This document shows, piece after piece, positions 2,890-56,047 of a DNA stretch of 61,641 nt. Below the pieces are notes generated by a model. That model saw nothing but the letters and a program-made list of their open reading frames with translations. It was not told the origin of the DNA and ran no database searches. The translations under genes were made by a program, and so were the position numbers. The stretch covers positions 1 to 61,641 of IMG/VR virus record IMGVR_UViG_3300049893_001527. One strand, 5' to 3'. The DNA is from a virus. Each line of letters opens with the position of its first letter. Position 1 is the first letter of the stretch.

Positions 2890-3186
2890 TTATACCGCCA
2901 AAGTCATACCGATTAACATAAATACTAGGGCTAAAGCTTGTTTCATGGTAGGCTCATTCCCCAACAACACAAAAGTACCAAACCAAGTAATAGTATAAAC
3001 TAAATCAAACACTAAACTCATAGTCCATGGATTAATATTTTGCTTAGTCATCCAAGCCCAAACACTTGCGGAAAATATAGTGGAGACAAATGGCCAAGCC
3101 CAACTATATCCTTGGATAGACCAATTACTAGTTACTGAACCCGCTATACCCGCTATCGACACCAAAACTATACATAACCATATCAT
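2890..3186 (-). CDS. Small integral membrane protein (three to four helices)
   Basis: 98 residues, almost entirely hydrophobic, with predicted membrane segments near residues 1-20, 28-45, 54-75 and 80-97. The pattern is like one half of an EamA/SMR-type drug-metabolite transporter, for example the final ALALVFMLIGMTLAV helix, but no decisive motif was seen. It overlaps the groEL-like gene by 4 nt, so it is co-expressed with the chaperonin. It might be an inner-membrane accessory protein; transport is only a guess. Confidence 0.6.
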   Translation of the reverse strand: MIWLCIVLVSIAGIAGSVTSNWSIQGYSWAWPFVSTIFSASVWAWMTKQNINPWTMSLVFDLVYTITWFGTFVLLGNEPTMKQALALVFMLIGMTLAV

Positions 3187-4907
3187 TGCATACCCGCCAA
3201 ATCCACCATCGCACTCGCTTCGCTTCGCTCTAAGATTTCATCTCTAGGGAAAACTATTGCCCCACCCAAAGTACCCAACAACGCCGCAATAGATATACTA
3301 TTACGGATAGCTTCGGCTACAGCAGGCATTGAATCCACTACGCCTAATTGTTCGACTGTACCAAATTCTCGACGCAATGCGTCATAAACCTTATCGTGGT
3401 TTATAATTTCCGACATTACGTGTTCTATGTCATTGGTAGTACAACCAGTATTTAATAACAATACCTCAACTGGTTCTTGGAATGCCTTAGCCAATATTTC
3501 TGTCGCTGGCCCCTTATCGGCTAATTCATTAAACAAAAGGTCCGATAATTTCAACAACATCCAGCCACCACCGGGTAATACCCCAAACTTAATAGCACCC
3601 CGGACAGCACAAGCCGCATCTTCCGCTCGGTCGCGCTTTTCCCTGACTTCTCCGGTACTTGGCCCACTAATGGTTAGTTTGGCAATACCACCACTTAGCT
3701 TCCCTATACGTTCTTTTAGTATAGTTTCTTCCAACATAGAGCCCTGACCTAATTGGGCCTTTAGTTCTTCTACTCTATTTATTACTGCATTGGAATCAGA
3801 ATGACCTACGACATTTGACCGATAGCGGCTAGCTTCAAAATAATCCAACTTTGGCCCTAATTGTTCCAAAGTGCCTCGTTCCATTGGATTACCCAATGCG
3901 TCAAAGATTTTACTACCGGTTACTGCTGCCAAATCTTCTAATACATTTTGTAGGCCAGAATGTATTGGTGACTTTGGAATTACCATTGGGTAAACTCTAA
4001 TGGTTTCACCACGGTCTGCCGCAGTCCAATTAGCTGCCAAATTACCTAATACTGTTTCACTAAAATCAAAAGCTACCAAAACTACATTTTTAATCGCATC
4101 GGAGTCCCCGGATTCAAACTTAGATCCAATTTGATGCATTAATGGCAAAATCATAGACATATCTGTAATCGAACCGAAAAATAGTACGAATACAGGGGAT
4201 TCCAGATATACCCGTTGGTTAGTCTTATCGTTTACGAAAACGCTATAAAATCTCTTACAAGCATCTTCGTAACCAGAATTCAAAGGATAGCCCTTTAGTA
4301 GTTCAACTTCGTATCCACTAGGGCCAGATTTTTCAGTTAGGGTGACATTACCGTCATCCCCAGCCAAATCAAAACATTTCATTATAGCTGTAGCCAGTTC
4401 GGTATCACCGTTGGCTGAACAAGTGGCTACTTGTTTTAATAAAGTAGGATTAGGAGTCAGAACAGATTGCTCAATTTGAGGCAAAATGTGTTCTTTGAAT
4501 AGGGATTCTAGTTCTCTAACCACACGTTGAGGGGAATATTGTGGGTGTGCTTGACAGAATTCGTGTGTGTGGCGTACTATGGCTTCTGCCAAAATGGTTG
4601 CGGTAGTGGTGCCGTCCCCGGCTTCTTGGGCTGTACGGACAGCAGCATCCCTAGCAGCTTCCATTATGGCATGACGCACCGCGTCTTGAAATCCCAAAGC
4701 TTTAAATACAGTTACACCATCCTTGGTAATAAGGTTAGGTAAACCGTATTCTTGTCGCTCTATTAATACTTGTGATCCACCCGGTCCTAGAGTAGATCCT
4801 ACTATGGTAGATATATCCTTCATAGTAGATAATACTTTTTCTGCTAATATTTTCCCTTTAGGGAGGGTAATTTTAGAAACTGATTTAACTTTCTTATAAG
4901 AAGTCAT
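3183..4907 (-). CDS. GroEL-like group I chaperonin
   Basis: 574 residues (GroEL is about 548). Equatorial ATP-site motifs are present: STLGPGGSQVLI (about 38-49), TKDGVTVFKAL (61-71), AGDGTTTATILAEAI (96-110) and VLPGGGW near the C-terminal equatorial half. The apical region is divergent, and the usual GGM-repeat tail is missing. Phage chaperonins of this sort (for example phage EL) fold phage proteins. It is the first gene of the minus-strand operon, about 143 nt downstream of a perfect sigma70 promoter, with an AAAGGA site before the ATG. A GroES-like gene lies at 8234-8659, so the phage may carry a matched pair. Confidence 0.95.
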   Translation of the reverse strand: MTSYKKVKSVSKITLPKGKILAEKVLSTMKDISTIVGSTLGPGGSQVLIERQEYGLPNLITKDGVTVFKALGFQDAVRHAIMEAARDAAVRTAQEAGDGTTTATILAEAIVRHTHEFCQAHPQYSPQRVVRELESLFKEHILPQIEQSVLTPNPTLLKQVATCSANGDTELATAIMKCFDLAGDDGNVTLTEKSGPSGYEVELLKGYPLNSGYEDACKRFYSVFVNDKTNQRVYLESPVFVLFFGSITDMSMILPLMHQIGSKFESGDSDAIKNVVLVAFDFSETVLGNLAANWTAADRGETIRVYPMVIPKSPIHSGLQNVLEDLAAVTGSKIFDALGNPMERGTLEQLGPKLDYFEASRYRSNVVGHSDSNAVINRVEELKAQLGQGSMLEETILKERIGKLSGGIAKLTISGPSTGEVREKRDRAEDAACAVRGAIKFGVLPGGGWMLLKLSDLLFNELADKGPATEILAKAFQEPVEVLLLNTGCTTNDIEHVMSEIINHDKVYDALRREFGTVEQLGVVDSMPAVAEAIRNSISIAALLGTLGGAIVFPRDEILERSEASAMVDLAGMQ

Positions 4908-5159: not shown

Positions 5160-5774
5160 ATGTTAATCGGATTTTTAGGTTGCCCTAATTCTGGCAAAAC
5201 TACTGTAGCTGCTAAAGTATATGCTAGTTTAAAAGATGATGGTTTATTGGCTGAATTCATACCAGAACAAGCCAGAACTTATATTGCAGAAAAAAGAAAG
5301 CGTAAGCCAATAATAGAACTAACAGATGATGATCAAAATAAAATAGCATCAGCCCAAACCTATGCTGAATTCTTATTTGATGAATCAGGAACCATAGTAG
5401 TAACTGATTCTTCTACAGTCAATACAGGACTTTATGTTAATAATCCACAAAACGCAGAATGCAGATTTAGGACAATAGTCAACTACGACATATTGTTTTT
5501 GTGCCCCCCTATTTACGAGTTTTTCATAGACCCAAACCGGGTACATTCTAGGGAACAGTCTTTGGCTTTGCATGATAAATTAATGAATTACTTAACTAGC
5601 AATAATATACCAATATTGGATCCAGACAATTTCGATCAAGCAGTATTTGGCAAAATGGGCAATATCTTTAGGGTAAATGGAAATTCGGACACGCGAATGC
5701 GCCAAGCCCTAAAGGTTATCCATTATGCTTATTTTAGAAACACCGACCAAACTAAGGATTCATCCAAAGGATGA
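5160..5774 (+). CDS. NadR-like P-loop ATPase/kinase (AAA_28-like)
   Basis: 204 residues from the ATG at 5160, chosen because AAAGGA (5148-5153) sits 6 nt upstream and the predicted transcript starts near 5137; an in-frame TTG at 5142 has no such site. A P-loop GCPNSGKTT is at residues 8-16, followed by EFIPEQARTYI, an E-x-x-R pattern typical of NadR-type nucleoside/nicotinamide-ribose kinases, and VVTDSSTV as a likely Walker B. In large phages NadR-like proteins are linked to NAD salvage, but this one has only the kinase-like half. First gene of the plus-strand operon. Confidence 0.7.
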   Translation: MLIGFLGCPNSGKTTVAAKVYASLKDDGLLAEFIPEQARTYIAEKRKRKPIIELTDDDQNKIASAQTYAEFLFDESGTIVVTDSSTVNTGLYVNNPQNAECRFRTIVNYDILFLCPPIYEFFIDPNRVHSREQSLALHDKLMNYLTSNNIPILDPDNFDQAVFGKMGNIFRVNGNSDTRMRQALKVIHYAYFRNTDQTKDSSKG

Positions 5775-7212
5775 ACAAATCCCTAAGTTACGTCAATTAT
5801 TGACTTATAGAGATTTGACTTTGGTTGGTGAATACCAACGCTTCAAAAAAGCAGTTTGGTTTGCCAATAAATATGGCAGACAAGCTTTTTATGAGGAACT
5901 AGAAAGAAAGAAAAATGCAATCAACGTTTGTTTACTTATGGAAGACGATAAAGGCTATTGGACTTATAGTGGTTTGTCTAATCGGTTATCTAATGAATTC
6001 AAATTACCGGTGGATAGCCTTGTCACTTATCCTGAACCCAAGCTTATACCTTGGGCTAGGGTGCCTACTATTGAACCCCGACCTTATCAATTAGTTAGCA
6101 AGGATAACTTAATAGAAATCCGACACGGGGGGGTAGAAATAGGGACTGGCCTAGGGAAATCCTTTATTATTTTAAACCTAATCAAGCATTATGGGCTACC
6201 TACGGTAGTAATGGCCCCTAGTCGGTCTATTGCTTGGCAGTTATACGATGAATTTGTAGACAAATTTGGTAAAAACAAGGTAGGTTTGTTTGGGGATGGT
6301 AAAAAGCAACTAGGCAAACTAATCACCGTTGGTATAGCGGCTAGTTTAGCCCGGGTCAAGCCGGGGACGGCTGAATTTGCCCACTTGGCATCAGCCACGG
6401 TCTTTATAGCAGACGAGTCCCACTTGTGTCCAGCGGAGACTTTGGCACAAGTTTGTTTTGGGGTTTGTGCTAATGCGCCTTACAGGTTTTTCTTCTCAGG
6501 CACCCAATTTAGAAATGACGGGGCCGATTTATTATTAGAAGGCATAACTAATAAAATAGTTTATCATATGACGGTCAAGGAGGGGGTAGACCAAGGGTAT
6601 TTGGCCAAACCGAAGTTTAAGGTCATTACCGTAGAGTCACCCTCTAATAAAACAAACTTAGAATACCAAGAATTCGTTGACGAACATTTCTACAAGAATA
6701 AATTAATTAATCAAAAAGCAGCCAATTTGGCCAATTTGGCCGTAGAACAACTAAACCACCAAGTATTAATACTAGTAGAACACATAGAACAGTTCCAATA
6801 CCTATTACCCTACTTTAAATATGAAGTGGGCTTTGCTCATGGTGGCGCTACACAATCCAATAAGCAGTTTTTGCCGCCAGAATACCATAAGTCAGACCCT
6901 AATGCCCTAGTTGAACGTTTTAATAAGGGTGATCTTAAAATATTAGTTGGCACTAGTTGTATTTCAACTGGCACAGACCTTAAACCAGTAGGTACTTTAA
7001 TTAATTTGCAAGCTGGAACGTCGGAAATCAAAATTAGACAAGCCATAGGTAGAGGTACGAGAAAAGTTGCAGATAAGGTATATTTTAATTATGTTGATTT
7101 TTGTGTAACCGTTAATGGTTTAGCGGATTCTGACAACATATTAGTACGGCATTGCCTGTCTCGGGTCCGTACTTATCGTGACGTTTATGACACCGTAGAA
7201 TGGATAAGCTAA
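5725..7212 (+). CDS. Superfamily 2 DNA helicase, UvsW-like
   Basis: 495 residues with an ordered SF2 motif set: GTGLGKS (Walker A, 140-146), VMAPSRSIAWQ (motif Ia), FIADESHL (DESH Walker B, 228-234), FFSGT (motif III, 256-260), ILVGTSCISTGTDL (motif V) and IRQAIGRGTR (motif VI, 438-446). In T4, UvsW unwinds recombination intermediates and origin R-loops and drives the switch to recombination-dependent replication, which fits the SbcC/SbcD-like pair here. The start overlaps the upstream gene by 50 nt; there is no strong alternative before the conserved region. Confidence 0.9.
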   Translation: MLILETPTKLRIHPKDEQIPKLRQLLTYRDLTLVGEYQRFKKAVWFANKYGRQAFYEELERKKNAINVCLLMEDDKGYWTYSGLSNRLSNEFKLPVDSLVTYPEPKLIPWARVPTIEPRPYQLVSKDNLIEIRHGGVEIGTGLGKSFIILNLIKHYGLPTVVMAPSRSIAWQLYDEFVDKFGKNKVGLFGDGKKQLGKLITVGIAASLARVKPGTAEFAHLASATVFIADESHLCPAETLAQVCFGVCANAPYRFFFSGTQFRNDGADLLLEGITNKIVYHMTVKEGVDQGYLAKPKFKVITVESPSNKTNLEYQEFVDEHFYKNKLINQKAANLANLAVEQLNHQVLILVEHIEQFQYLLPYFKYEVGFAHGGATQSNKQFLPPEYHKSDPNALVERFNKGDLKILVGTSCISTGTDLKPVGTLINLQAGTSEIKIRQAIGRGTRKVADKVYFNYVDFCVTVNGLADSDNILVRHCLSRVRTYRDVYDTVEWIS

Positions 7213-8223
7213 ATGAAACAATGGAATTCAGGTATTTTTAAACAATTCGCTATTGATTTAAGTAGGATTATACAATCATACGGTAAAAAGCCAGCCAAAG
7301 CGGATTTTGATAAAGTACAACAAAAGCAAGTAGAGGAAATGGTTGCGGCTGAAACAGCTTTTAGGGAAGCATTAATTAAATCTTCGGTAGGGGAGGAAGT
7401 TTACCAACGGTTTATGGATTATGTGTTGTCTGAAAAGGGTAATATATTAGCTGCCAGACCATATTTTAGAGAACGCCAAGTCACCTACAGGGATACTATA
7501 GCGGCGGCATTTAAGGCCAAAGACCCTAAAGGTTTGTTTCCGTACCATATCAACTACCATTTTATTCAATTAGCTATTAAGACCGGTTTATTAAATAAAG
7601 GTCTATTGAAATTAGCCAAAAAGGCTGAACTTAAGCGGCAACTGCTGATTGAACTCAATATGCCTTTGGCTTTGTCAAGAGTTAAGTTATTTAGTAAGAA
7701 TAAACCAGCTAAACACTTGGATTATATGGATTTAGTGCAATCTGCTGTTGAGGGACTAGTAGCCGCTATAGACAAATTCGTACTCCCTTATACACCCGTG
7801 TTTAGGTCTGTTATCATAGGGCGGGTAACTGGCCAACTAATAAAAGATTATTCGGAAACGGTATTGCATTTTTACCCTTCCGACAAACGTAAAATATATA
7901 GGGCCAATATTGCTCGTAAGAAAGCCGGGGTGACCCCGGAGCAATTAGCCGAATTTGTTAATAGTTTAGAAAAAAACGATAATTTCACGGATGCAGATGA
8001 AATCAGCAAGCTACTAGAAGCCGTAGACCATTTATCGTTAGATATGCCTATTGACGCTGGGGAAGATCCAGACGACTTGGGGGAATTTGAAGCACCAGAC
8101 GATTGTAGACCAGACAATCAATTTGAAAATGAAGAACTTAAATACAAATTATATGATGGGATTTCTAAATTAAATGTTTTTCAACAAAAATTGCTTAAAT
8201 TAAAGGGTTTAGCAATAAAATAA
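7213..8223 (+). CDS. Phage-encoded sigma70-family factor lacking region 4.2
   Basis: 336 residues. Residues about 150-225 read as sigma region 2: LALSRVKLFSKNK, then YMDLVQSAVEGLVAAIDKF (the DLIQEGNIGL-AIDKF signature) and FRSVIIGRVTGQLIKDY. Residues 274-292 (LSLDMPIDAGEDPDDLGEF) match the region 3.2 SLDxPIxxDxxxxLGDF signature. The protein ends with ISKLNVFQQKLLKLKGLAIK, exactly where region 4.1 would begin, so the -35-reading helix-turn-helix is absent. T4 gp55 is a known example of a sigma with only -10-type recognition. It starts 1 nt after the helicase stop. I infer that it reads the YAATCTWW elements before the structural genes. Confidence 0.82.
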   Translation: MKQWNSGIFKQFAIDLSRIIQSYGKKPAKADFDKVQQKQVEEMVAAETAFREALIKSSVGEEVYQRFMDYVLSEKGNILAARPYFRERQVTYRDTIAAAFKAKDPKGLFPYHINYHFIQLAIKTGLLNKGLLKLAKKAELKRQLLIELNMPLALSRVKLFSKNKPAKHLDYMDLVQSAVEGLVAAIDKFVLPYTPVFRSVIIGRVTGQLIKDYSETVLHFYPSDKRKIYRANIARKKAGVTPEQLAEFVNSLEKNDNFTDADEISKLLEAVDHLSLDMPIDAGEDPDDLGEFEAPDDCRPDNQFENEELKYKLYDGISKLNVFQQKLLKLKGLAIK

Positions 8224-8233
8224 GGTAATTACA

Positions 8234-8659
8234 ATGATAACTCTAAATAAATTAATTGCTTGTAAGCCATTTAAAGAAGTAGCTATTAAAACTAAGATAG
8301 AAAAGGGGTTTGGTGGTATCGAACAGAAGCAATCCCTGATTTCAACAGAGGTTTTGCTTAGTTTTTTTGGTGATCATAACCTCGTTTTTACGCCCGGCGA
8401 TACCGTTTGGTTGTATGGCGATGCACTATCCCATCACGTATGGTCCCGAAAAGTGTATAATGTGGACAACTTAGAATTTATATTGATTCCTTTTGAATCA
8501 ATTGTAATGTGCAAACACCTACCCGTAACGAGTGATTTAGCGCCGCCTGTAGGTAGCCCATGGCGAGTTACAAACCCATTACCACCGTATACCGTAGGTG
8601 ATCCTGCGCCATATATTATCACTTGTGGGACAAGCACAACGGAACCAACCGATAAATAA
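8234..8659 (+). CDS. GroES/gp31-like co-chaperonin
   Basis: 141 residues. The first 95 follow the GroES beta-barrel plan: CKPFKEVAIKTKIEKGFGGIEQK (barrel strand then mobile loop with FGGI), TPGDTVWLYGDA (the VGDxVxF signature) and VYNVDNLEFILIPFESIVMC (the NxxxYLIMxExDILA-type ending). GroES is about 97 residues; this protein has an extra proline-rich C-terminal tail of about 45. It probably caps the phage GroEL-like protein encoded at 3183-4907, or the host GroEL as T4 gp31 does. Sequence similarity is weak, so a different OB-like protein is possible. Confidence 0.6.
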   Translation: MITLNKLIACKPFKEVAIKTKIEKGFGGIEQKQSLISTEVLLSFFGDHNLVFTPGDTVWLYGDALSHHVWSRKVYNVDNLEFILIPFESIVMCKHLPVTSDLAPPVGSPWRVTNPLPPYTVGDPAPYIITCGTSTTEPTDK

Positions 8660-8660
8660 T

Positions 8661-9644
8661 ATGCGCCCATACTTAATAATAGGTGATGTTCATGCGACTC
8701 CTAGCGAACTCAATGATTGCTGGGAACTCATGCATTATATTAATCAAATAGCAATTGAACATAAAGTACATGGCATAGTATTTTTGGGTGACCAATACCA
8801 CACGCACTCTATTATCCACTTAGAAGTACAGGATTTCTGGCGTAAAGCCCTAGAATACCTCAAGGAACCTACTTGTAATACTATTTGTTTGGTTGGAAAC
8901 CACGATATGTCTGGCGTCAAGGAATCCAAAGTATCGGCTATGGACGTACATGACCAATTGGCCTTTATTATTAATAAACCAACTTGTTTAGATGGTATAT
9001 TATATATACCTTATATGGCAGACACACAGGAATTCATCAGGGTGTGTCAAAAATACCACACCGACTACCCCGAAGTTAAAATAGTAGTTTGCCACCAAGA
9101 ATTCAATGGGGCCAATATGGGTGGTATGTATTCCAAAGAAGGCATTGACATTAATCAAATCCCGCAAGCTATTATAGTGTCTGGTCATATTCATGCCAAG
9201 CAACAATTGGATAAAGTATTTTACCCGGGTAGTCCGCGTTGGCGGACTTTGGCAGATGCTAACGAACATAAGTCAATAGTTTTAATGGATTTTTATAGTG
9301 GTACTGTAATTAAGGAATTTCCAACCGATAAGGTATGCAAAAAAGTAATAGTACACGAATCACACGAATCACAGCCCCTAGAACATACCTTAGACCCCCA
9401 CACCGACACCACCATTAAAATATTTGGTTCAGCCAAGTTTTGTGAATCTGAGGCGGAACGCTGGAAGGCATTAGGGGCTAAAGTTAAGGTATTTGTGGAC
9501 CAAGTAACGGTTGCGACTATTAAAGAATCAGATGGGCTCAGTACGTCTTTTTATAAATATTGGCAAAAATATCAACCGCCACGCCAATCTTTAAAGGAGC
9601 AACTATGGAAACTGGCACAGAATCGGATAAGCTGGTTAGGGTAA
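8661..9644 (+). CDS. SbcD/Mre11/gp47-type metallophosphoesterase nuclease
   Basis: 327 residues from the ATG at 8661, which gives an N-terminus directly at the first motif. The calcineurin-like metal-binding motifs appear in order: IIGDVHA (6-12), FLGDQYH (41-47), VGNHDMS (78-84), CHQEF (144-148) and SGHIHA (174-179). The C-terminal half is the specificity/capping region. Partner of the SbcC-like ATPase at 77-2110 in double-strand end processing; the two subunits are encoded in divergent operons rather than side by side as in most phages. Confidence 0.92.
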   Translation: MRPYLIIGDVHATPSELNDCWELMHYINQIAIEHKVHGIVFLGDQYHTHSIIHLEVQDFWRKALEYLKEPTCNTICLVGNHDMSGVKESKVSAMDVHDQLAFIINKPTCLDGILYIPYMADTQEFIRVCQKYHTDYPEVKIVVCHQEFNGANMGGMYSKEGIDINQIPQAIIVSGHIHAKQQLDKVFYPGSPRWRTLADANEHKSIVLMDFYSGTVIKEFPTDKVCKKVIVHESHESQPLEHTLDPHTDTTIKIFGSAKFCESEAERWKALGAKVKVFVDQVTVATIKESDGLSTSFYKYWQKYQPPRQSLKEQLWKLAQNRISWLG

Positions 9645-9937
9645 AGGAAGTCCGTGCTCAACTTAGGGAATTCACTAAACTTACCGGTGGGTTACACGAA
9701 TACCAAGTACAACACTTAAAAATGTGGCCTTTGGTGTTTTTTGGGTATAATGAGTCAGAATGTCATTTCGATTATGAAGCCAAAGAACTAACGTTTTTCT
9801 TAGCCAAAAACCAAGAAAACCTCGCTAAACGCATTATGGCGGTTCGTTTTAAAGAATTTGTTAAAGCAATTAAAGAATTAATAGGGGATTACAAAGTAAT
9901 AGTTCGTACCAACAAGAAAGTATTGTATGAGTCCTGA
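9605..9937 (+). CDS. Hypothetical protein, 110 residues
   Basis: Starts at the ATG at 9605 behind an AAGGAG site and overlaps the end of the SbcD-like gene by 40 nt. The sequence is mixed alpha/beta (HFDYEAKELTFFLA in the middle, basic helix KEFVKAIKELIGDYKVIVR at the end) with no recognised motif. Sitting between the nuclease and terminase genes it is part of the same transcript. Confidence 0.75.
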   Translation: METGTESDKLVRVKEVRAQLREFTKLTGGLHEYQVQHLKMWPLVFFGYNESECHFDYEAKELTFFLAKNQENLAKRIMAVRFKEFVKAIKELIGDYKVIVRTNKKVLYES

Positions 9938-10505
9938 TATTGAGTCCTTATTAACGGTAGAAGAACAGCAAGCATTGCTGAAATGGCGAGCAAATACCAA
10001 TTTGCGACCAATACCGGTGGCTAATGCTTTACAATTATATCAATTGTATTTAAATGGTTATAGTTGTAAAGATATATATAGATTAAATGATGAATCCTTG
10101 CCATTAGGGTCGATAGTGGATGCACGTATTCGTCACGAATGGGACCGCCGCAAGGATGAACACTTAAAGCAATTATACGATACGATTTCCGACAAAGTAT
10201 TAAAAACTCAAATGGAATCAGCGGCATTTTTGGCAGATTCCCTAAGTGCAGCCCACGTAGAACACGGGACAAAATTTAAGAAATACCTTCAAACACACAA
10301 TCCCGAATTCATAGAACAAATAGGCATACATTCCCTAAAGGAATATCGGGAAACCCTTAATGCTTTAACTAATTTAGTAAATAAGCAAACTGCTAAAATA
10401 GAAAAAGAATCCCCAGCCGTCAAAGAGTTGCCGGTCAAGGAACAGCCAGTTGAGCTTGACAACGAAGCTGCGCTTAAGTTATTGGAATCATTAGAGAATA
10501 AGTAA
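9927..10505 (+). CDS. Putative small terminase subunit
   Basis: 192 residues placed directly before the large terminase and overlapping it by one base. The N-terminal third has a helix-turn-helix-like stretch (ANALQLYQLYLNGYSCKDI, about residues 32-50) as in TerS DNA-binding domains; the middle is helical, suited to oligomerisation, and the C-terminus is a charged KE/PV-rich tail. The assignment rests mainly on position, size and architecture. Confidence 0.6.
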   Translation: MSPDIESLLTVEEQQALLKWRANTNLRPIPVANALQLYQLYLNGYSCKDIYRLNDESLPLGSIVDARIRHEWDRRKDEHLKQLYDTISDKVLKTQMESAAFLADSLSAAHVEHGTKFKKYLQTHNPEFIEQIGIHSLKEYRETLNALTNLVNKQTAKIEKESPAVKELPVKEQPVELDNEAALKLLESLENK

Positions 10506-12409
10506 TGGATGATATAGAACGGACAAAACGCAAGGCTTTATTCGTCCCTTGCCAATCCAAGGATTCATTAAAAAGATGGATTAAGATATATTTAGGTCTA
10601 GATATACCCGATACCATACTTTGCGATGACGACACCACTACGCCACCATCCAATTCTAGCCCCATGGATTTATTATGGGAAATATATCATAAGGCATTGG
10701 ATGGTAAAGACGAAGATTTCCAAACAGTTTTGGCTTACGCTGCCCGGGACTCTTATAAAACATTGTCGGCTGCCGTAATGGAAGTGCTTTGTTTGTTCCA
10801 CTTAAGACGTAGCGTAGCCCACATGGCGGCTATTGAATCCCAAGCGGCCAAAGCGGTACAATATGTAGATAAGTTTTTGCGTAGACCGATTTTGAGGGAT
10901 TTCGTTACTTCCAACAACAAAAGAACGGTTGAAATAACTCGTTACGACCACGTTAACTTTAAATATCCTACTTTATCTAAAGCTGAATACGATGCGTTAG
11001 ATATTAGCAAAAAGGGTAGTTATACCGCACATTCTTACTACATTAAAGTAGTTATAGCTACTATGGCTGGTGCGAACTCAGAACACGTACCTTTTATGGT
11101 TTTGGACGAATTAGACTTGGCCCCACCCAAGCCAGTAGAAGAAGCACAAATGATTCCGTCACAGGGGGAAAATGGGGAAGTCCCTATTACTTTAATGATT
11201 TCCAGCCGTAAATTCGCCTTCGGCTTAGTACAGAAAGCATTAGACGAGGCTGAATCAAAGAAAACTATAGTTAGGCATTGGAACTTATTGGATGTAACCA
11301 AAAAGTGTGAACCAACCAGACACCTACCCGAAGAACCTAAAATACCTATATATTATAATGAAAATACTTTAGCGGCTATTAATGAGGCAGATTTTAAGTT
11401 ATTATCACCAGAAACCCAATCAAAATATAAAAAAGCCGAAGGTTTTGCTGGATGCTTAAAGAATTGCTCGTTATTTGCTAGCTGTAAAGGTCGATTAGCC
11501 ACTAAGCCGGTAGGAGATTCTAAATTATATAAGTCTGTAGCGGTTACCAAAGGGGTGTTCCATAAAGTAACAGCAGAAACCGCTAAAGCCCAATTACTTT
11601 GTTGGAAACCATCTAGTGAAGGCTTGATTTACCCCCACTTTGACCGTACCAAACACGTAGTTAGGGCTAGGGCTATGGCGGAACTTATTACAGGAGAACT
11701 ACCGAAAAGCCCATTTTTTAGTAAAGCAGATTTAATTAATTTAATGAAAGCTAGGGGTATGTCTTTTCATTTAGGCATGGACTTCGGCTTTACACACAAT
11801 TTCGCTACAGTTTTAGCGGGTTTAGATGGTCACCGGTTATTTATATTTGACGTACAAGCTGTGGCTGGATTAGAATTAAATGAAAAAATAGGTATTTGTA
11901 AGCCATATTTGGATTATGACCCCACAGTTTATCCAGACCCCGCTTACCCTAGCGACATTAAATCATTTCGCAGGGCTGGCTTTAGGTGTAAGACTTTTAC
12001 CAAAGATATATTAGCTGGAATTGACTCAGTACGTATTAAATTAATGCCGGGTGGTGGCAAAGAACCAGAACTATTTATATTAGGTGGTGACGAAGGTTGT
12101 GAACTATTAGTAGATCGTGTATCAAAATACCATTGGGTATTGGATGATGCGGGTAGGCCAACTGACGTACCAGACGATTCTTTAGATGACGAAGTTGACG
12201 CATTGCGTTATTTGTGTCAAAATTTGTTCGGTCCTAAAGGGAAACCGGTAGCTGCCAGTATTAATCAAACCACCATTACCCAATCCGGGGAATCTACCGT
12301 AATCACTAGGGATAATTGGATGGTGGAGCGTATTAGGACTTTGACGGATGGAAATAGCACTTCAAATATAATAAAAGGCAAGAAGGGCTCCTTTATATTT
12401 GAGGTATAA
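10505..12409 (+). CDS. terL: Terminase large subunit (packaging ATPase-nuclease)
   Basis: 634 residues. The ATPase domain has a Walker A-type AARDSYKTLSA (79-89) and Walker B PFMVLDELDLA (196-206) followed by a coupling motif LMISS. A cysteine set (Cys317, Cys321, Cys327, Cys366) suggests a zinc-bound insertion. The nuclease domain opens with HLGMDFGFTHNFA (Asp426) and ends with SLDDEVDALRYL, giving the RNase H-like acidic residues. It packages DNA through the portal encoded at 13418-15298. A degenerate relative of its ATPase domain is encoded in the tRNA island (48304-48798). Confidence 0.95.
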   Translation: MDDIERTKRKALFVPCQSKDSLKRWIKIYLGLDIPDTILCDDDTTTPPSNSSPMDLLWEIYHKALDGKDEDFQTVLAYAARDSYKTLSAAVMEVLCLFHLRRSVAHMAAIESQAAKAVQYVDKFLRRPILRDFVTSNNKRTVEITRYDHVNFKYPTLSKAEYDALDISKKGSYTAHSYYIKVVIATMAGANSEHVPFMVLDELDLAPPKPVEEAQMIPSQGENGEVPITLMISSRKFAFGLVQKALDEAESKKTIVRHWNLLDVTKKCEPTRHLPEEPKIPIYYNENTLAAINEADFKLLSPETQSKYKKAEGFAGCLKNCSLFASCKGRLATKPVGDSKLYKSVAVTKGVFHKVTAETAKAQLLCWKPSSEGLIYPHFDRTKHVVRARAMAELITGELPKSPFFSKADLINLMKARGMSFHLGMDFGFTHNFATVLAGLDGHRLFIFDVQAVAGLELNEKIGICKPYLDYDPTVYPDPAYPSDIKSFRRAGFRCKTFTKDILAGIDSVRIKLMPGGGKEPELFILGGDEGCELLVDRVSKYHWVLDDAGRPTDVPDDSLDDEVDALRYLCQNLFGPKGKPVAASINQTTITQSGESTVITRDNWMVERIRTLTDGNSTSNIIKGKKGSFIFEV

Positions 12410-12414
12410 TCTTT
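12407..12414 (+). promoter_or_regulatory. Late-promoter-like element TAATCTTT
   Basis: Lies in the 23-nt gap after terL, 26 nt before the ATG at 12433. It overlaps a TATAAT but has no -35 box at 17 nt. First of the repeated YAATCTWW elements. Confidence 0.5.
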
Positions 12415-18790: not shown

Positions 18791-18798
18791 CAATCTAA
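18791..18798 (+). promoter_or_regulatory. Late-promoter-like element CAATCTAA
   Basis: Intergenic, 34 nt before the ATG at 18825; an AGGAG site follows at 18812-18816. A TTGTCA at 17 nt from the overlapping TAAGGT could be a partial -35 box, the only copy with one. Confidence 0.5.
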
Positions 18799-18824: not shown

Positions 18825-19292
18825 ATGGCTTATAAATCAAAGAAGGCATCAGCAACCATGCGTCAATTGAAGGACGACCTTGGTCAACGTTTGGGTTCCA
18901 CTTTTACACTAACTGAAAGTGTTGGCGTATCAGACAATTATCCTACACTAGTAGTTGGCGACGCTACCCCAGCAGCCGGTGAAGATGGTTGTTTTATTAA
19001 AATTGGTCCCGAAGATGGCGTAGTACAAGCTCTAAACGCGGTTGGTGGTACACAAGACGTATTTACCCCACATATCGTACACGTAGCGTTTGAACAATCT
19101 GCCGTATTGGGACAAACCCTTGCCAGCATGGCGTTCGTAACCCGTGTTCTTTCACACCTATTAACTTTGGGTATGAAGGTCAAGGTATACCACTCTGCTA
19201 ACGGTGTATTCCCGGTAGAAGGTACATTGATTGCTGGTAACCTAAAGGTAACTATCGATCAATTGTGGCACCCACTAACTCAAACGTTGTAA
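18825..19292 (+). CDS. Probable small capsid-block structural protein
   Basis: 155 residues with a strong Shine-Dalgarno site and codons biased toward CTA, GTA and CGT as in the major capsid gene, which suggests high expression. The fold looks beta-rich with two hydrophobic stretches (VLGQTLASMAFVTRVLSHLL in the C-terminal half). Position before the scaffold and capsid genes and its own late-type element make a decoration or stabilising head protein likely, without a recognised family. Confidence 0.7.
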   Translation: MAYKSKKASATMRQLKDDLGQRLGSTFTLTESVGVSDNYPTLVVGDATPAAGEDGCFIKIGPEDGVVQALNAVGGTQDVFTPHIVHVAFEQSAVLGQTLASMAFVTRVLSHLLTLGMKVKVYHSANGVFPVEGTLIAGNLKVTIDQLWHPLTQTL

Positions 19293-19297
19293 TCTTA
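19290..19297 (+). promoter_or_regulatory. Late-promoter-like element TAATCTTA
   Basis: Overlaps the stop codon of the previous gene, 36 nt before the ATG at 19326. No -35 box at the expected distance. Confidence 0.5.
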
Positions 19298-19325: not shown

Positions 19326-21776
19326 ATGTCAAAATTCGACCAAGATGTTGCCGCGCTTATCAAAGAAGCGCGGCAACAAATAAGTGAATTAATTAAGTCT
19401 AGCCAAGAAGAATTGGCTAAAGCTACTATTGGTGAAGTGCTTGAGGCTAAGGCTAAGGGCGAATCATCACCAGAATCATCACCAGAATCATCACCAGACG
19501 TACCCAAATCAGTTAGTTCAAAACCTGTTGGTGTATTAGTTAAAAAGCCGGGGCAACCAAAGCCTGTATTAGATAGGGCGGTTACCCCTGCTAGTCCATT
19601 TATTGCTGGTCGTGATGTTCCAGCGACAGCAGAAAAATTCCCGCAAGTAGTTTCTAAGCCAGAATTTATTGCACAACCTACAAGTAAATCCCCAAAGCCT
19701 GAAATAGAAGACAAAAGTGTTCAACATGATCCGCATCAACATTTGTCGGATAAAATGAAGCTTTTGGGAAACATTTTAGAGCAACACCCAACAAATCCAG
19801 ACGTAGCTAAAAGAGTAGCTAGATCGTTTGCGGATTACATGGTTGCACACAAAGATACCGCCAAAACGTCTAACAAAAAAGAAAGCCATATAGGATCTAG
19901 TAAGGATGCTGCTGCTGGTTTACTAGCACAACCAACTCTAACAGCAAAGTATAGAGCCAAACACGATCCAAAGTTTAGAAAAGAATTGTTAGCTCAACCC
20001 GAATACCAAGACGTATTAGACGAAAAGGGTGAATTAAAATCCAAGCCAGACTTAGGCGATTTTGAGCATTGGACCAAAAAGATGCTAGATATTGCATCTG
20101 GCCAACGTGAACCATTAGAAAATGAGCCTTCAAAAGAAGAAGCGTCCGAAAAGCTATTAAGCTTTTTGCAACACGCTCCTTTGGCTGACCAAGTAAAACA
20201 ACGTGTAGCTCGCGGTTATAAAGACGCAAATGTCACAGCCCGCGTAGCTACACCAGAAGAAATAGCCGATCCGGCATTTTATGAACAATTGTTTGGTAAG
20301 CAAAGCAGGCAACAAGCCGAACACCAACCTGACCCATTATTGCCAGACGAGCTTGATAGTGGCCAAACTACAGACACCGGTTATGAGGGTGGAGCAATCA
20401 AGGATAAAGGCGGTAAAGGTGGGACAAAGGCGGGATTTGGTAATTATGGTTCTGCTATCCCAAGTATTGCTAAATTACAGCAATGGGCCGAAACCAGACC
20501 CGAATATGCTTTTTTGCAACGTCAACAAAATCCAGATGGCACCTATGAATCATTGGAAACCCACCATCAACGTTTGGAAAGTGCCAGAAACAAACTAATA
20601 GATGCTCAAAACGCTGCTAGAAAAAAAGCAGATAAATCTTCATTTTTGGCGTCACCAGAAGAAAAAGCTGCACTAGCAGCCCGTAAAGCCGCTGTTGGCC
20701 AAATTGGTCAACCCGGTGGACCACAACCTAAAAAGGTAGAAGTACCGGATAAAATTAAATCAAAAGTAGAACAACAACCAACCGTAGGTTTTGGTGGTAT
20801 GGGTGGTTCTAGTGGGGATACATGGAATGCGGTTCAAGTAGCCCAACAATTACATGATGAAGTACAAGCCCACAAAAAGCAAAATGAATCCGCACGTTTA
20901 TGGCAAACGCCAGAAGGTCAAGCTAAAATATTGGCTAGACACAAATCAGAAATGATGGCTCATAAGGATCTTCAAAAGGATCCGGTCTTAACTAGTGCTT
21001 TAATACACCCATCTTTTATGCAAACCGTTATGGATAGCGGTAGATTTAGGGTAGATCCGGCTACTAAGCAATCTGTACCATATGTGGATAAATTGTTAGA
21101 AATACCATCTTTGAAAAACTATGCACAAAAAATTCAAGGTGATGTTGTCAAACAAGTCTCAGATGAATTAAAGGCTAGTGGTCGTGGGGCAGATCCACAA
21201 GCAGTAAATGAAGGTGTAGCTAAAAAAATGGGCCAAATGTTAGGCCAAAAAATAGTTCAATCTCGTGCCGCAAAAGCACAAAGCTTAATGGCTAAAAAGC
21301 CGGGTGTTAAAATGCGTCCCGGTGTAGGTATTACACCTACCGCATCCCATAGTGGACGTATAGCGGAAACCATTAAACGTATTAGGTCAAAGCCTTTTGG
21401 TACTAGAGCATTTACTGGAACAGGTAATATGCCTGACAATTGGGAAGATAGCCCACCAAAGGGTGTTGGAAGTATAGCTAGATTACCAGATGAAGCAACC
21501 CCGGAATATGTTGATAGAACTGGCCTATTGGGTAATAAGAAAAAAGCGACAGACGTAGCAACAAAATCTAAAATAAGTGGTCCAGAAGCAGACGCTACGG
21601 CACAAAAAATAAAAGCCGATCATGCTGCGAAAGAAGCAGCAAAACTAGCAGCTAATGTAAAACCGGGTAAATTAGAACAAACACCTTGGAAACCCGGGGA
21701 AAAAGAAGCTTGGATACAAACCGGGGATAGATTGGCTAAGATAAAAGCAGAACTTGGAAAAAAGAAGAAGTCCTAA
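19326..21776 (+). CDS. Large disordered lysine/glutamine-rich virion-block protein
   Basis: 816 residues from the ATG at 19326. It is strongly hydrophilic, with low-complexity Ala-Lys-Gln-Pro-rich segments, an ESSPESSPESSP repeat at about residues 50-60 and a coiled-coil-like start (DQDVAALIKEARQQISELIK). No enzyme motif was seen. Placed before the scaffold-like gene and capsid gene, it may be an inner-core or ejected head protein that is cut by the prohead protease; this is inference. Confidence 0.7.
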   Translation: MSKFDQDVAALIKEARQQISELIKSSQEELAKATIGEVLEAKAKGESSPESSPESSPDVPKSVSSKPVGVLVKKPGQPKPVLDRAVTPASPFIAGRDVPATAEKFPQVVSKPEFIAQPTSKSPKPEIEDKSVQHDPHQHLSDKMKLLGNILEQHPTNPDVAKRVARSFADYMVAHKDTAKTSNKKESHIGSSKDAAAGLLAQPTLTAKYRAKHDPKFRKELLAQPEYQDVLDEKGELKSKPDLGDFEHWTKKMLDIASGQREPLENEPSKEEASEKLLSFLQHAPLADQVKQRVARGYKDANVTARVATPEEIADPAFYEQLFGKQSRQQAEHQPDPLLPDELDSGQTTDTGYEGGAIKDKGGKGGTKAGFGNYGSAIPSIAKLQQWAETRPEYAFLQRQQNPDGTYESLETHHQRLESARNKLIDAQNAARKKADKSSFLASPEEKAALAARKAAVGQIGQPGGPQPKKVEVPDKIKSKVEQQPTVGFGGMGGSSGDTWNAVQVAQQLHDEVQAHKKQNESARLWQTPEGQAKILARHKSEMMAHKDLQKDPVLTSALIHPSFMQTVMDSGRFRVDPATKQSVPYVDKLLEIPSLKNYAQKIQGDVVKQVSDELKASGRGADPQAVNEGVAKKMGQMLGQKIVQSRAAKAQSLMAKKPGVKMRPGVGITPTASHSGRIAETIKRIRSKPFGTRAFTGTGNMPDNWEDSPPKGVGSIARLPDEATPEYVDRTGLLGNKKKATDVATKSKISGPEADATAQKIKADHAAKEAAKLAANVKPGKLEQTPWKPGEKEAWIQTGDRLAKIKAELGKKKKS

Positions 21777-21781
21777 TCTAA
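21774..21781 (+). promoter_or_regulatory. Late-promoter-like element TAATCTAA
   Basis: Overlaps the stop codon of the previous gene, 35 nt before the ATG at 21809. No -35 box at 17 nt. Confidence 0.5.
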
Positions 21782-21808: not shown

Positions 21809-22621
21809 ATGGCAAAACTACGTAAAGATGATGAAACCGCAGCAAGCGCACCAGCGCCAGAAGAAACTTCTAGCCCTGCGCCAATGGATACTGATGGTCC
21901 AGATGCTTCTTTGGAAGGATCTGATGAAGTAGAACCATCTACAGCTAGTGATGCCGGGGCAGACCCGTCCGCGTCCGAAGATGCGGCCCTAGGGGACGCG
22001 GGCGAAGGCGTAGCCGGTGACGACACCGCTGCATTAGTTCAAGCTCTAAGTGCATTGCCACCAGAAAAGCTAGAACAATTAGTTAATGCTATAGAACAAG
22101 TAATTATGTCTAAGGGTGGTGAAGCGGGTGGTGAAACCGCACCAGTAGACGGTCAAGGCGATGCGGGCCAAGCTGCTTCACCGCCAGCCGAAGCCGGTGC
22201 AGAACCCGGGCCAGTAGGACAGGATGCAGGCCAATTAGCACCAGAAATGGGTGCCCCACCAGAAATGCCACCAGAAGAACAACTAGCTCAATCCGAAAAG
22301 GTTGTTCCAAGCGAAGCTTTAGTAAAGTCAGAAGCTAAAGTTGCTGAATTAGAAAAAGCTGTTGGTGATCTAATTGGCACTTTGGAATCAGTATTGACAC
22401 AACCAGTACGTAAGGCTGGAAAAGAATTAGCTAAGGCAGAAAAGCCAGCCATGCCAAAGTTCTCTGAATTAAATAAATCAGAACAAACTAAAGCTCTAAC
22501 TGGTTTATCACGCAATCCGTCACTAACCAAATTCGAACGTTCTAAGATCAATGACTTCGTGTTGTCTAAGTCAGTTTCTATCAATGAGATAGAATCAATC
22601 TATGAAAAGTATAACAAATAA
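21809..22621 (+). CDS. Acidic scaffold-like protein
   Basis: 270 residues from the ATG at 21809 (GGAG at 21799-21802). The first two thirds are Ala/Glu/Pro/Gly-rich and highly acidic, with hardly any fold; the last third is a basic helical region (KAVGDLIGTLESVLTQPVRKAG and LNKSEQTKALTGLS). An acidic disordered protein immediately upstream of the major capsid gene is the usual profile of a scaffolding/core protein. It has its own late-type element and the capsid gene follows after 18 nt. Confidence 0.68.
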   Translation: MAKLRKDDETAASAPAPEETSSPAPMDTDGPDASLEGSDEVEPSTASDAGADPSASEDAALGDAGEGVAGDDTAALVQALSALPPEKLEQLVNAIEQVIMSKGGEAGGETAPVDGQGDAGQAASPPAEAGAEPGPVGQDAGQLAPEMGAPPEMPPEEQLAQSEKVVPSEALVKSEAKVAELEKAVGDLIGTLESVLTQPVRKAGKELAKAEKPAMPKFSELNKSEQTKALTGLSRNPSLTKFERSKINDFVLSKSVSINEIESIYEKYNK

Positions 22622-26728: not shown

Positions 26729-26895
26729 TGCGGATTATGTGGGATATTTGCGTAGCGATTAGCTTAATTTGGTGTATTGTATTGCTAAATACGGCCATAC
26801 ACGAACCATTATTAAGAGAACACGTACCCGGGGCATTAATATCGGTGGGGGCTATAGGTTTAGGGTATTATTTGAGATTTAGGCAGCAATCTTAG
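26728..26895 (+). CDS. 55-residue protein with two membrane segments
   Basis: ATG coupled to the previous stop. The protein has a hydrophobic segment at residues 5-22 (WDICVAISLIWCIVLL) and another at 35-50 (GALISVGAIGLGYYL) joined by a short polar loop, with a basic end RFRQQS. Two helices and this size would suit a class II holin or a small membrane regulator, but no endolysin is adjacent, so the role is open. Its last codons overlap a late-type element. Confidence 0.55.
   Translation: MRIMWDICVAISLIWCIVLLNTAIHEPLLREHVPGALISVGAIGLGYYLRFRQQS
26887..26894 (+). promoter_or_regulatory. Late-promoter-like element CAATCTTA
   Basis: Overlaps the end of the 55-residue gene, 28 nt before the ATG at 26915. 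An AGGAG site follows. This marks the return to structural genes after the thyX module. Confidence 0.5.
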
Positions 26896-32090: not shown

Positions 32091-32098
32091 TAATCTTA
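32091..32098 (+). promoter_or_regulatory. Late-promoter-like element TAATCTTA, 13 nt before an ATG
   Basis: In CCCCTAATCTTACGCAC followed directly by the ATG at 32104. There is no room for a leader or Shine-Dalgarno site, so the message would be leaderless if the element is a -10 box. Confidence 0.55.
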
Positions 32099-32103
32099 CG
32101 CAC

Positions 32104-32889
32104 ATGAACATTTTTGTATGTTGGGCCATGGACAGGTTAGCGGATAATGTTGACACTTATTTGGTAGGTGGCAATATTGACGCATTGCGTCAACAATCTC
32201 AAAACATGGAACGTTTTGGGCTAATGGTTAAGCAATGGGTTCAAGCCCACCATGGCAAAAATATATACCAAATGGGGGCCACCGGGGCATTTGAAATACC
32301 TAGTGACCGGGGCCACGAACTACGTAGTTTACACAACAAGTTTGACGAAATCATGCAATCTAACGGGTCTATGGGGGTAGGGTTGGAGCTACCGCAAGCG
32401 GCCCAAGCCTTGCATTACGCGGTGCGTCAAGGTGGTGGGACTATAGCCATGTTCGATGATTCCATGGTGGATGAACCCGAAACCACTAAGGAATCCGAAT
32501 TGTTGGGCTTAACTAAAGCACAAGGAGTGGAGGGGGTTAGAAATGAGGGCAGGGCTGCACCAACCCCTCCCCAACGTGGAAAACAAGAACCAGCCCCTAT
32601 GCCTTCTCCTGATGCTGGTCCAGCTAGTTTAGATCCAAGTGCTCCACCGGCAGAACAACCTGCGGGCCCTTCTGCCGGACCAGAGTCCCCTGAAATCGAA
32701 CCTAATCAACCAGAAGAATCTCCTAGAGAACAAGTAATGGCGGCATTAAAAGAAATAAAAGAAGCTGCGCCAATATTAGAACAAATAAAACAACAATCGC
32801 CAGAAACATATAAAGCGATAATGGATATAGTAGATGCCATGATAACTATGGCAGAGAAAATGTCTGGTGGCGAAAATGTCCCTGCTTAA
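32104..32889 (+). CDS. Hypothetical virion-block protein, possibly leaderless
   Basis: 261 residues if the ATG at 32104 is used; an internal ATG at 32128 is the alternative, and neither has a Shine-Dalgarno site. The first half is helical (NIDALRQQSQNMERFGLMVKQW), the middle is a proline/glutamate-rich spacer and the end is a helical segment (EIKEAAPILEQIKQQSPETYK). Function unknown; it overlaps the next gene start. Confidence 0.62.
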   Translation: MNIFVCWAMDRLADNVDTYLVGGNIDALRQQSQNMERFGLMVKQWVQAHHGKNIYQMGATGAFEIPSDRGHELRSLHNKFDEIMQSNGSMGVGLELPQAAQALHYAVRQGGGTIAMFDDSMVDEPETTKESELLGLTKAQGVEGVRNEGRAAPTPPQRGKQEPAPMPSPDAGPASLDPSAPPAEQPAGPSAGPESPEIEPNQPEESPREQVMAALKEIKEAAPILEQIKQQSPETYKAIMDIVDAMITMAEKMSGGENVPA

Positions 32890-36623: not shown

Positions 36624-36631
36624 TAATCTTT
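36624..36631 (+). promoter_or_regulatory. Late-promoter-like element TAATCTTT, 13 nt before an ATG
   Basis: In CCCCTAATCTTTCTAAC followed by the ATG at 36637, the same spacing and the same CCCC flank as at 32091. Confidence 0.55.
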
Positions 36632-36636
36632 CTAAC

Positions 36637-37626
36637 ATGATAGTTCAGACCGTCACACATGGGATTTTCCAGTCAGATATAGTTATTAGGTCTGCTATCG
36701 TGCAGGGTTTGGCATATTTGCGCGAATCCCCATGGTTGTTAGATTACGTGTTTGCGTATTTGCCACATGATGATTTGACTAGTAATTCTTGGGGGTTAGA
36801 AGAACTTAATAAAGCCAAAGAATGGTTTTTGCGAACCCAAATCCAAGTTCGATTAGGGTTTGATTCAGCAGAACCGCCCCGTACCCCTACAGTAGTAATA
36901 GTATTAGACGATTCTAGTGAAGCCGCGACTACTTTAGGGGATGTTTCAGCCCAAGGGGTAGAAGAAACCACAGATTTCTATGACTATGTTATCAAACCTA
37001 ATATAATATTAGGACCATTTACTCCAAAATCCTTTGATTCTACTACTGGTTTAGTGGTTTTACCAGACGACTTAGACACTACCAACATACATGAATCAAT
37101 GTATTTGATGGATAATGTAAATAAAGTAGCTTATTCTATTAATACAGTTGACATAGGACAAGAATTCTATATAGATGAAGATGTAAGGGCGAATTTTACT
37201 AACGCAACCATTATTTCTCAGAATTCCCTACATAAAGTGCAATTGGAATCCCTAGTAGAACGAGAAGTCTACCGTTTGGAGCTATTTTGCTCTAGTTCTA
37301 CGACTAATTTGATTTATTTGCATTCTATTATTAAGTTTATCCTATTACGTTATAGACAATCGCTGTTGGAAAAGCGTGGATTTGAGCGTAGTAACTTTTA
37401 TTCAACTGGTTTGCGTCTATTTAGGGATGACTTACCGGAAATTATATATACTAGGTCTATTGTTTTGGCTGGTTATGTCGTACAATATTGGCCAAAAGAA
37501 GTAACTGGCATGATAGACGGCTTACATATTGGGACTTTCAAAATCAAAGACGGTCCAGCGTCCCCGGATGCCTTGGAAACACAAATAGTTGACCAAGGTT
37601 GGGAAATGGAAAACGATTCTTGGTAA
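36637..37626 (+). CDS. Tail-block structural protein before the sheath gene
   Basis: 329 residues from the ATG at 36637, preferred because it lies 13 nt after a TAATCTTT element; a GTG at 36604 would extend into it. Mixed fold, with NLIYLHSIIKFILLRYRQSLLEKRGFE and IIYTRSIVLAGYVVQYWPKEV in the C-terminal half. Position two genes before the sheath suggests a tail-terminator or neck protein; no family identified. Confidence 0.65.
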   Translation: MIVQTVTHGIFQSDIVIRSAIVQGLAYLRESPWLLDYVFAYLPHDDLTSNSWGLEELNKAKEWFLRTQIQVRLGFDSAEPPRTPTVVIVLDDSSEAATTLGDVSAQGVEETTDFYDYVIKPNIILGPFTPKSFDSTTGLVVLPDDLDTTNIHESMYLMDNVNKVAYSINTVDIGQEFYIDEDVRANFTNATIISQNSLHKVQLESLVEREVYRLELFCSSSTTNLIYLHSIIKFILLRYRQSLLEKRGFERSNFYSTGLRLFRDDLPEIIYTRSIVLAGYVVQYWPKEVTGMIDGLHIGTFKIKDGPASPDALETQIVDQGWEMENDSW

Positions 37627-37629
37627 AGG

Positions 37630-37637
37630 TAATCTAA
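37630..37637 (+). promoter_or_regulatory. Late-promoter-like element TAATCTAA abutting a start codon
   Basis: Directly followed by ATG at 37638; a second in-frame ATG lies 14 nt from the first base, at 37644, which would be the start of a leaderless message. Confidence 0.5.
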
Positions 37638-39231: not shown

Positions 39232-39239
39232 TAATCTAA
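39232..39239 (+). promoter_or_regulatory. Late-promoter-like element TAATCTAA before the tail sheath
   Basis: 33 nt before the ATG at 39265, with a GGAGA site between. The AATCTAAGGT context equals that at 18791. Confidence 0.5.
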
Positions 39240-43802: not shown

Positions 43803-43810
43803 TAATCTTA
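43803..43810 (+). promoter_or_regulatory. Late-promoter-like element TAATCTTA before the tail tube
   Basis: In the gap before the tail tube, 26 nt from the ATG at 43829. Confidence 0.5.
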
Positions 43811-53650: not shown

Positions 53651-53986
53651 GGGGGTAACAAGGTTTCGACGTAGAAATGAAATCCTCAAAGGCAAGCCGT
53701 AGTTGGTCGTTGGCTACGTTAAAAAGCGACTAAAGCATAAAAGACGCTGACATGGCTCTAGCAGCAGCTTAATTGTTGTTGCCCTTTTATTATAAATGCG
53801 AATATATAATAAAAGGTAAAGAATTCGCTAAGGCTCCGGTGGTTTAGGTGGTGGCTAACAAGCCTAGGGGCACAAAAATCAAAGTCAGCTACCCTAGTAG
53901 TAGCCTTGTAGGGGGTTAATCCTACTAAGCTTGTAGAATTTAGGACGTAGGTTTTACGGACGCGGGTTCGATTCCCGCTACCTCCA
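53651..53986 (+). ncRNA. ssrA: Transfer-messenger RNA
   Basis: 336 nt. The 5' end GGGGGTAACAAGGTTTCGACG and the 3' T arm GCGGG-TTCGATT-CCCGC with acceptor TACCTCC form the tRNA-like domain; GGGGGTA pairs with TACCTCC with one G-T. The tag frame (53734-53772) reads SIKDADMALAAA then TAA, though the exact resume codon is inferred. It ends in ALAAA rather than the usual ALAA. Rescues stalled ribosomes and tags proteins for proteolysis. It closes the RNA island. Confidence 0.92.
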
Positions 53987-54004
53987 ACCGAAGCGCGCTG
54001 TACG

Positions 54005-54052: not shown

Positions 54053-54082
54053 GGCTATCAATCTTTACGGCATTGGGGATTA
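54053..54082 (+). repeat. 30-bp exact direct repeat, copy 1 (with a late element)
   Basis: GGCTATCAATCTTTACGGCA plus ten more bases to TTGGGGATTA; identical to 56018-56047. It lies upstream of the first tailspike gene and carries CAATCTTT at 54059-54066 and a GGGG Shine-Dalgarno-like site. Confidence 0.85.
54059..54066 (+). promoter_or_regulatory. Late-promoter-like element CAATCTTT before the first tailspike
   Basis: 28 nt before the ATG at 54087, within the 30-bp repeat. The following ACGG is shared with the second tailspike element. Confidence 0.5.
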
Positions 54083-56017: not shown

Positions 56018-56047
56018 GGCTATCAATCTTTACGGCATTGGGGATTA
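56018..56047 (+). repeat. 30-bp exact direct repeat, copy 2
   Basis: Identical to 54053-54082, upstream of the second tailspike gene. Only the bases next to the ATG differ (TAT here, CGGT there). Confidence 0.85.
56024..56031 (+). promoter_or_regulatory. Late-promoter-like element CAATCTTT before the second tailspike
   Basis: 25 nt before the ATG at 56049, in the second repeat copy. Confidence 0.5.

Follow-up and report, generated by a model that had tools for sequence, protein, structure and literature searches.

The phage DNA analysed here (61,641 nt, positions 1 to 61,641 of IMG/VR record IMGVR_UViG_3300049893_001527; the window) encodes a sigma factor that ends naturally inside region 4.1, and this truncated sigma is a trait of a large set of phages, most of them uncultured, that are related to Myxococcus phage Mx1. 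We consider it probable (about 0.77) that the protein is the late sigma factor of Mx1-like phages of approximately 150-180 kb, a -10-only factor derived from a primary-type sigma by removal of region 4.2. Computation established that the protein is homologous to sigma factors, that its truncation is conserved, and that a promoter motif exists which is linked to virion genes and lacks -35 conservation.

The sigma gene ends in TAA, and the ATG of the next gene lies 10 nt past this stop, at 8234, in agreement with the natural end proposed in the first-pass annotation. It is embedded in the order helicase, sigma, small protein, SbcD/gp47-like nuclease, two small proteins, and large terminase, which is identical in Mx1. 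As open reading frames were called with a simple script, gene starts in the window and its relatives are approximate. The sigma gene, its parts, and its neighbours are as follows.

5725-7212, + strand: helicase (phrog_16), upstream of the sigma gene; gene order also in Mx1
7213-8223, + strand: putative late sigma factor gene, 336 aa, with a family-wide natural end inside region 4.1
7228-7437, + strand: region 1.2-like N-terminal helices, residues 6-75 (AlphaFold2 model aligned to sigma70)
7438-7587, + strand: family-specific block with invariant RPYFRE, residues 76-125 (conservation in the family)
7597-7857, + strand: sigma domain 2, residues 129-215, predicted to bind core and read the -10 element (PHROGs, profile alignments)
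7858-8028, + strand: sigma domain 3 helices, residues 216-272 (profile alignments, AlphaFold2 model)
8029-8109, + strand: region 3.2 linker or sigma finger, residues 273-299 (alignment to RpoD 3.2; pLDDT partly low)
8110-8220, + strand: region 4.1, residues 300-318 and 322-330, plus the terminal KLLKLKG motif (conservation, AlphaFold2 model)
8234-8659, + strand: downstream neighbour with a weak Cpn10/GroES-like fold match, probably not the partner of the sigma
8661-9644, + strand: SbcD/gp47-like nuclease (phrog_100); gene order also in Mx1

A Pfam search with the window protein as a single sequence returned no sigma match, and Sigma70_r2 matches stay under the curated cut-off. PHROGs assigned residues 128-331 to phrog_351, 'RNA polymerase sigma factor' (E 1.8e-10), and family profiles built from 3 and 47 sequences matched SigA/RpoD chains with E values of about 1e-8 and 4.5e-10, respectively. 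The SigA/RpoD alignment is colinear through region 2, region 3, and the sigma finger, up to 'REAKVLRMRFGI' in region 4.1; an hhalign comparison of the family with an RpoD (E 5.8e-8) likewise spans region 2 to region 4.1. The region 2 and 3.2 signatures that had been read from the sequence are thus borne out by PHROGs, the family profiles, and the RpoD alignment. The AlphaFold2 model (pLDDT 88.6) can be aligned to sigma factors from region 1.2 on, with residue 5 corresponding to about residue 94 of sigma70, and its last helices (residues 300-318 and 322-330) are helices one and two of sigma 4, the recognition helix-turn-helix being missing. This corrects the initial description, which placed the end in the first helix of region 4: the chain continues through the second helix before it stops. 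It has the region 2 homology and the region 3.2 finger of the sigma-70 superfamily and lacks a complete region 4 with the 4.2 helix-turn-helix, an element found in many but not all members and absent from T4 gp55. The Trp-Trp dyad of region 2.3 is also absent from the family consensus. The RPYFRE block is conserved to about the same degree as sigma 2.

A profile scan identified sigma relatives on 76 viral contigs. Of the family, 74 proteins have an intact 3' end, a set comprising the window, Mx1, and viral contigs in which the relatives are 29-43% identical to the window protein; all of them terminate 1-20 residues (mode 3) past the conserved Gly332, and the family shares the terminal motif K-[LVI]-[LI]-R-[LM]-K-G-[VI]. 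Among 48 members with less than 80% mutual identity, Lys326 never varies and Gly332 hardly ever does. Averaged over pairs, identity in the last 15 residues (0.526) is close to that in sigma 2 (0.529), whereas the preceding linker and helix reach only 0.20-0.27; conservation of this kind next to a variable stretch points to a role in binding for the truncated end. The stop codons after the shared end vary across the family (TGA, TAA, or TAG). Because the truncation is common to all 74 proteins, it is neither a chance event nor a sequencing error. Region 4.2 is indeed missing, as first noted: no convincing match was found in the three frames downstream of the sigma stop, none is conserved elsewhere in 17 genomes, and no relative with a longer sigma was found either, so the original statement that no frameshift is involved holds. 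No relatives of the family were confirmed in bacterial genomes, and region 4.2 was probably lost in an ancestor of the phage group.

The promoter motif YAATCTWW was analysed in 10 related genomes (approximately 150-180 kb where complete), where it is enriched in intergenic DNA and, ahead of gene starts, in the sense orientation. Within 60 nt upstream, 124 genes carry the octamer in sense and 41 in antisense; in the window it precedes 12 of the 70 genes, against a mean of 0.66 for permuted motifs, while in Mx1 it precedes only three. An unseeded EM search recovered an octamer-like motif in several genomes, and in several genomes motifs resembling ribosome-binding sites or codons came first. In the tested stretches of the unrelated phages SPO1 and T4, zero and one sense octamer cases were found, respectively. 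The candidate late promoter octamers in the window are listed below, each by motif match unless stated otherwise.

9585-9592, + strand: octamer CAATCTTT, the top-scoring one in the window, before gene 9605 (110 aa)
12407-12414, + strand: octamer before gene 12433
18791-18798, + strand: octamer before gene 18825
19290-19297, + strand: octamer before gene 19320
21774-21781, + strand: octamer before gene 21797
22596-22603, + strand: octamer before gene 22640, whose Mx1 orthologue is the major capsid protein
26887-26894, + strand: octamer before gene 26915
32091-32098, + strand: octamer before gene 32104
37630-37637, + strand: octamer abutting the start of gene 37638, which may be chance
39232-39239, + strand: octamer before gene 39265, whose Mx1 orthologue is the tail sheath protein
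43803-43810, + strand: octamer before gene 43829
54059-54066, + strand: octamer before gene 54087
56024-56031, + strand: octamer before gene 56049

The octamers at 54059-54066 and 56024-56031 look like products of a duplication, as they lie in near-identical contexts before two genes arranged in tandem, 54087 and 56049.

The motif is tied to gene class. With orthologues compared and the genomes counted as independent, the octamer was found before 25 of 73 virion-gene cases and before none of 89 cases of replication, recombination, chaperone, metabolism, and sigma genes. Baseplate, prohead protease, portal, capsid, and sheath genes carry it in part of the genomes; as the strict octamer accounts for only about a third of the virion-gene cases, we assume that the others are served by operons or by variant sites. 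A purine stands 6 nt past the octamer in 117 of 132 promoter octamers versus 163 of 329 octamers inside genes (p 4e-16). This purine lies 13 positions past the first base of the octamer in the 132 instances; if it is +1, as we infer in assigning start sites from this signal, the octamer occupies -13 to -6. In the -35 zone, no position rose above the shuffle threshold and no hexamer was enriched. The YAATCTWW promoter proposed at the outset is real, enriched upstream of virion genes, and devoid of a -35 element. Two sites, 32091-32106 and 36624-36639, have the form ccccTAATCTTWcnnncATG, in which the predicted start site falls on the ATG, a hint of leaderless late mRNAs.

These observations can be assembled into a mechanism. 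The sigma would load on the host core RNA polymerase via sigma 2, sigma 3, and the finger (3.2), read YAATCTWW as a -10-type element at about -13 to -6, and melt its AATCTT portion with no -35 contact, so that the virion genes would be transcribed from octamer promoters; on CAATCTTA, initiation is predicted 6 nt past the octamer. That this sigma is the factor reading YAATCTWW is suggested by the co-occurrence of the two in the 10 genomes, which is weakest in Mx1, and another factor could read the octamer. The region 4.1 hairpin and the K-x-L-R-L-K-G tail would serve as an anchor on the beta-flap or on a phage co-activator; this is at present the most likely role for them, although it is a guess.

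Two sub-models of the -10-only late sigma differ in whether a partner is involved. The first, which we regard as possible but short of an even chance, is that the protein is half of a two-part sigma, with region 4.2, or a flap cap like gp33 that packs against the region 4.1 hairpin, coming from a second phage protein. SigO-RsoA of B. subtilis is a sigma of this two-part kind. The cut exactly between helices 2 and 3 of sigma 4, the high conservation of the end, and the annotation of SPO1 gp33 as a 'sigma factor accessory' all favour such an arrangement. However, no conserved region 4 protein (PF04545) was found in 17 genomes, the PF04545 matches that might have provided region 4 in trans being scattered and non-conserved, with one overlapping an HNH endonuclease of Mx1; there is also no conserved -35 element for a supplied region 4.2 to read. 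Likewise, no gp33-like protein (phrog_254) was matched beyond chance level in the window and 16 related genomes, although gp33 is short and divergent. In the same genomes, neither a gp45-like clamp (phrog_223), of which a divergent form could escape detection, nor the C-terminal domain of the bacterial clamp DnaN (PF02768) was convincingly detected, and the sigma tail is mostly basic and hydrophobic, not acidic. A partner or clamp, one of the two options given in the first-pass annotation, gains no support from these searches.

Candidates encoded near the sigma gene fared no better as partners. The best fold matches of the downstream neighbour (8234-8659) are Cpn10 chaperonins, including T4 gp31, with weak E-values, and the phage also has a GroEL gene; the neighbour is probably a co-chaperonin and was rejected as a co-activator. 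Together, the GroEL homologue (3183-4907, - strand) and the Cpn10-like protein (8234-8659, + strand) suggest a phage-encoded chaperonin pair. The core proteins encoded at 9605-9937 and 9927-10505 gave no informative matches as sigma partners; the latter, whose gene precedes that of the large terminase, probably represents the small terminase.

Slightly less plausible is the second sub-model, in which region 2 and extended -10 contacts suffice and no partner is needed. It fits the failure to detect a partner, and T4 gp55 alone gives basal transcription (PMC2988020). Weak preferences at -17 to -14 would also agree with it, but they differ between genomes, and the reliance on extended -10 reading that had been offered as the alternative to a partner finds only this weak signal. 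The conserved C-terminal motif, moreover, suggests a binding role.

It seems improbable that the protein is instead a decoy that sits on core RNA polymerase and blocks host transcription while something else reads the octamer. The tie between protein and motif is correlative, which leaves room for this reading, but the protein retains region 2, region 3, and the finger, and in these genomes the octamer is followed by a start-like purine at the spacing of a -10 element. A frameshift, an erroneous truncation, or readthrough in the window phage is refuted by the stop shared across the family: the 74 3'-complete proteins all have their end at this point, and the three frames downstream contain no convincing region 4.2.

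The closest functional parallel to the proposed -10-only late sigma is T4 gp55 (phrog_234); sigma factors independent of a -35 box have been modelled on T4. Both are phage sigmas without region 4.2, both go with a -10-only octamer at -13 to -6 (here a predicted position) and with late virion genes, and both have an SbcD/gp47-like gene nearby. T4 late promoters consist of such an octamer with no -35 conservation (PMC2988020); computationally, the Mx1-like phages show the same position, the same lack of a -35 element, and the same association with late genes, although the octamer sequence differs from that of T4. The proteins themselves, however, showed no sequence relationship (hhalign probability 0.6%). 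Gp55 consists of a sigma 2 domain, a helix-loop-helix, and a clamp-binding tail, and works with the gp45 clamp and with gp33, which sits on the beta-flap (PMC7892883), whereas the window family retains region 1.2-like helices, region 3, region 3.2, and half of region 4. As far as can be told from sequence, the family would work like gp55 while showing no relationship to it, and it probably evolved independently, by loss of region 4.2. More tentatively, and with somewhat less than even confidence, we propose a second, independently evolved -10-only late system, in which the region 4.1 hairpin would dock a co-activator or replication link unrelated to gp33 and gp45.

Other known factors are more distant in design. 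SigA/RpoD is colinear with the family from region 2 to region 4.1, but the family lacks region 4.2 and the region 2.3 Trp dyad and goes with another -10 sequence. SPO1 gp34, which acts with gp33, is also a myovirus late sigma, but it runs on into an HTH-like C-terminus (sequence read by eye), which the window family does not. The gp68/gp226 proteins of phiKZ/AR9 are sigma-like promoter factors of large phages; unlike the window family, they are fixed subunits of non-virion RNA polymerases, with a domain in the position of region 4 (PMC7618050). The Mx1 protein WNM70309.1 belongs to the family, with 40% identity and a shared gene order; its record already names it 'putative RNA polymerase sigma factor' but is silent on the missing region 4 and on the promoter; the literature searched contained no description of the Mx1 sigma, the family-wide truncation, or the promoter. 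If the proposed mechanism is correct, an unrelated lineage would use the same promoter design with a different sigma architecture, offering a test of which features are essential and of whether clamp coupling to replication is general. A predicted late-promoter consensus is now available for this large, mostly uncultured phage group.

Elsewhere in the window, the gene at 9605-9937, flanked by those of the gp47-like nuclease and the probable small terminase, encodes a protein of 110 aa that is conserved, carries an LKMWPLV motif, and has no family match. The window also carries an array of 22 tRNA genes, at the end of which lies a complete tmRNA (53651-53989; Rfam RF00023, 130.8 bits) with the ARAGORN-predicted tag DADMALAAA.
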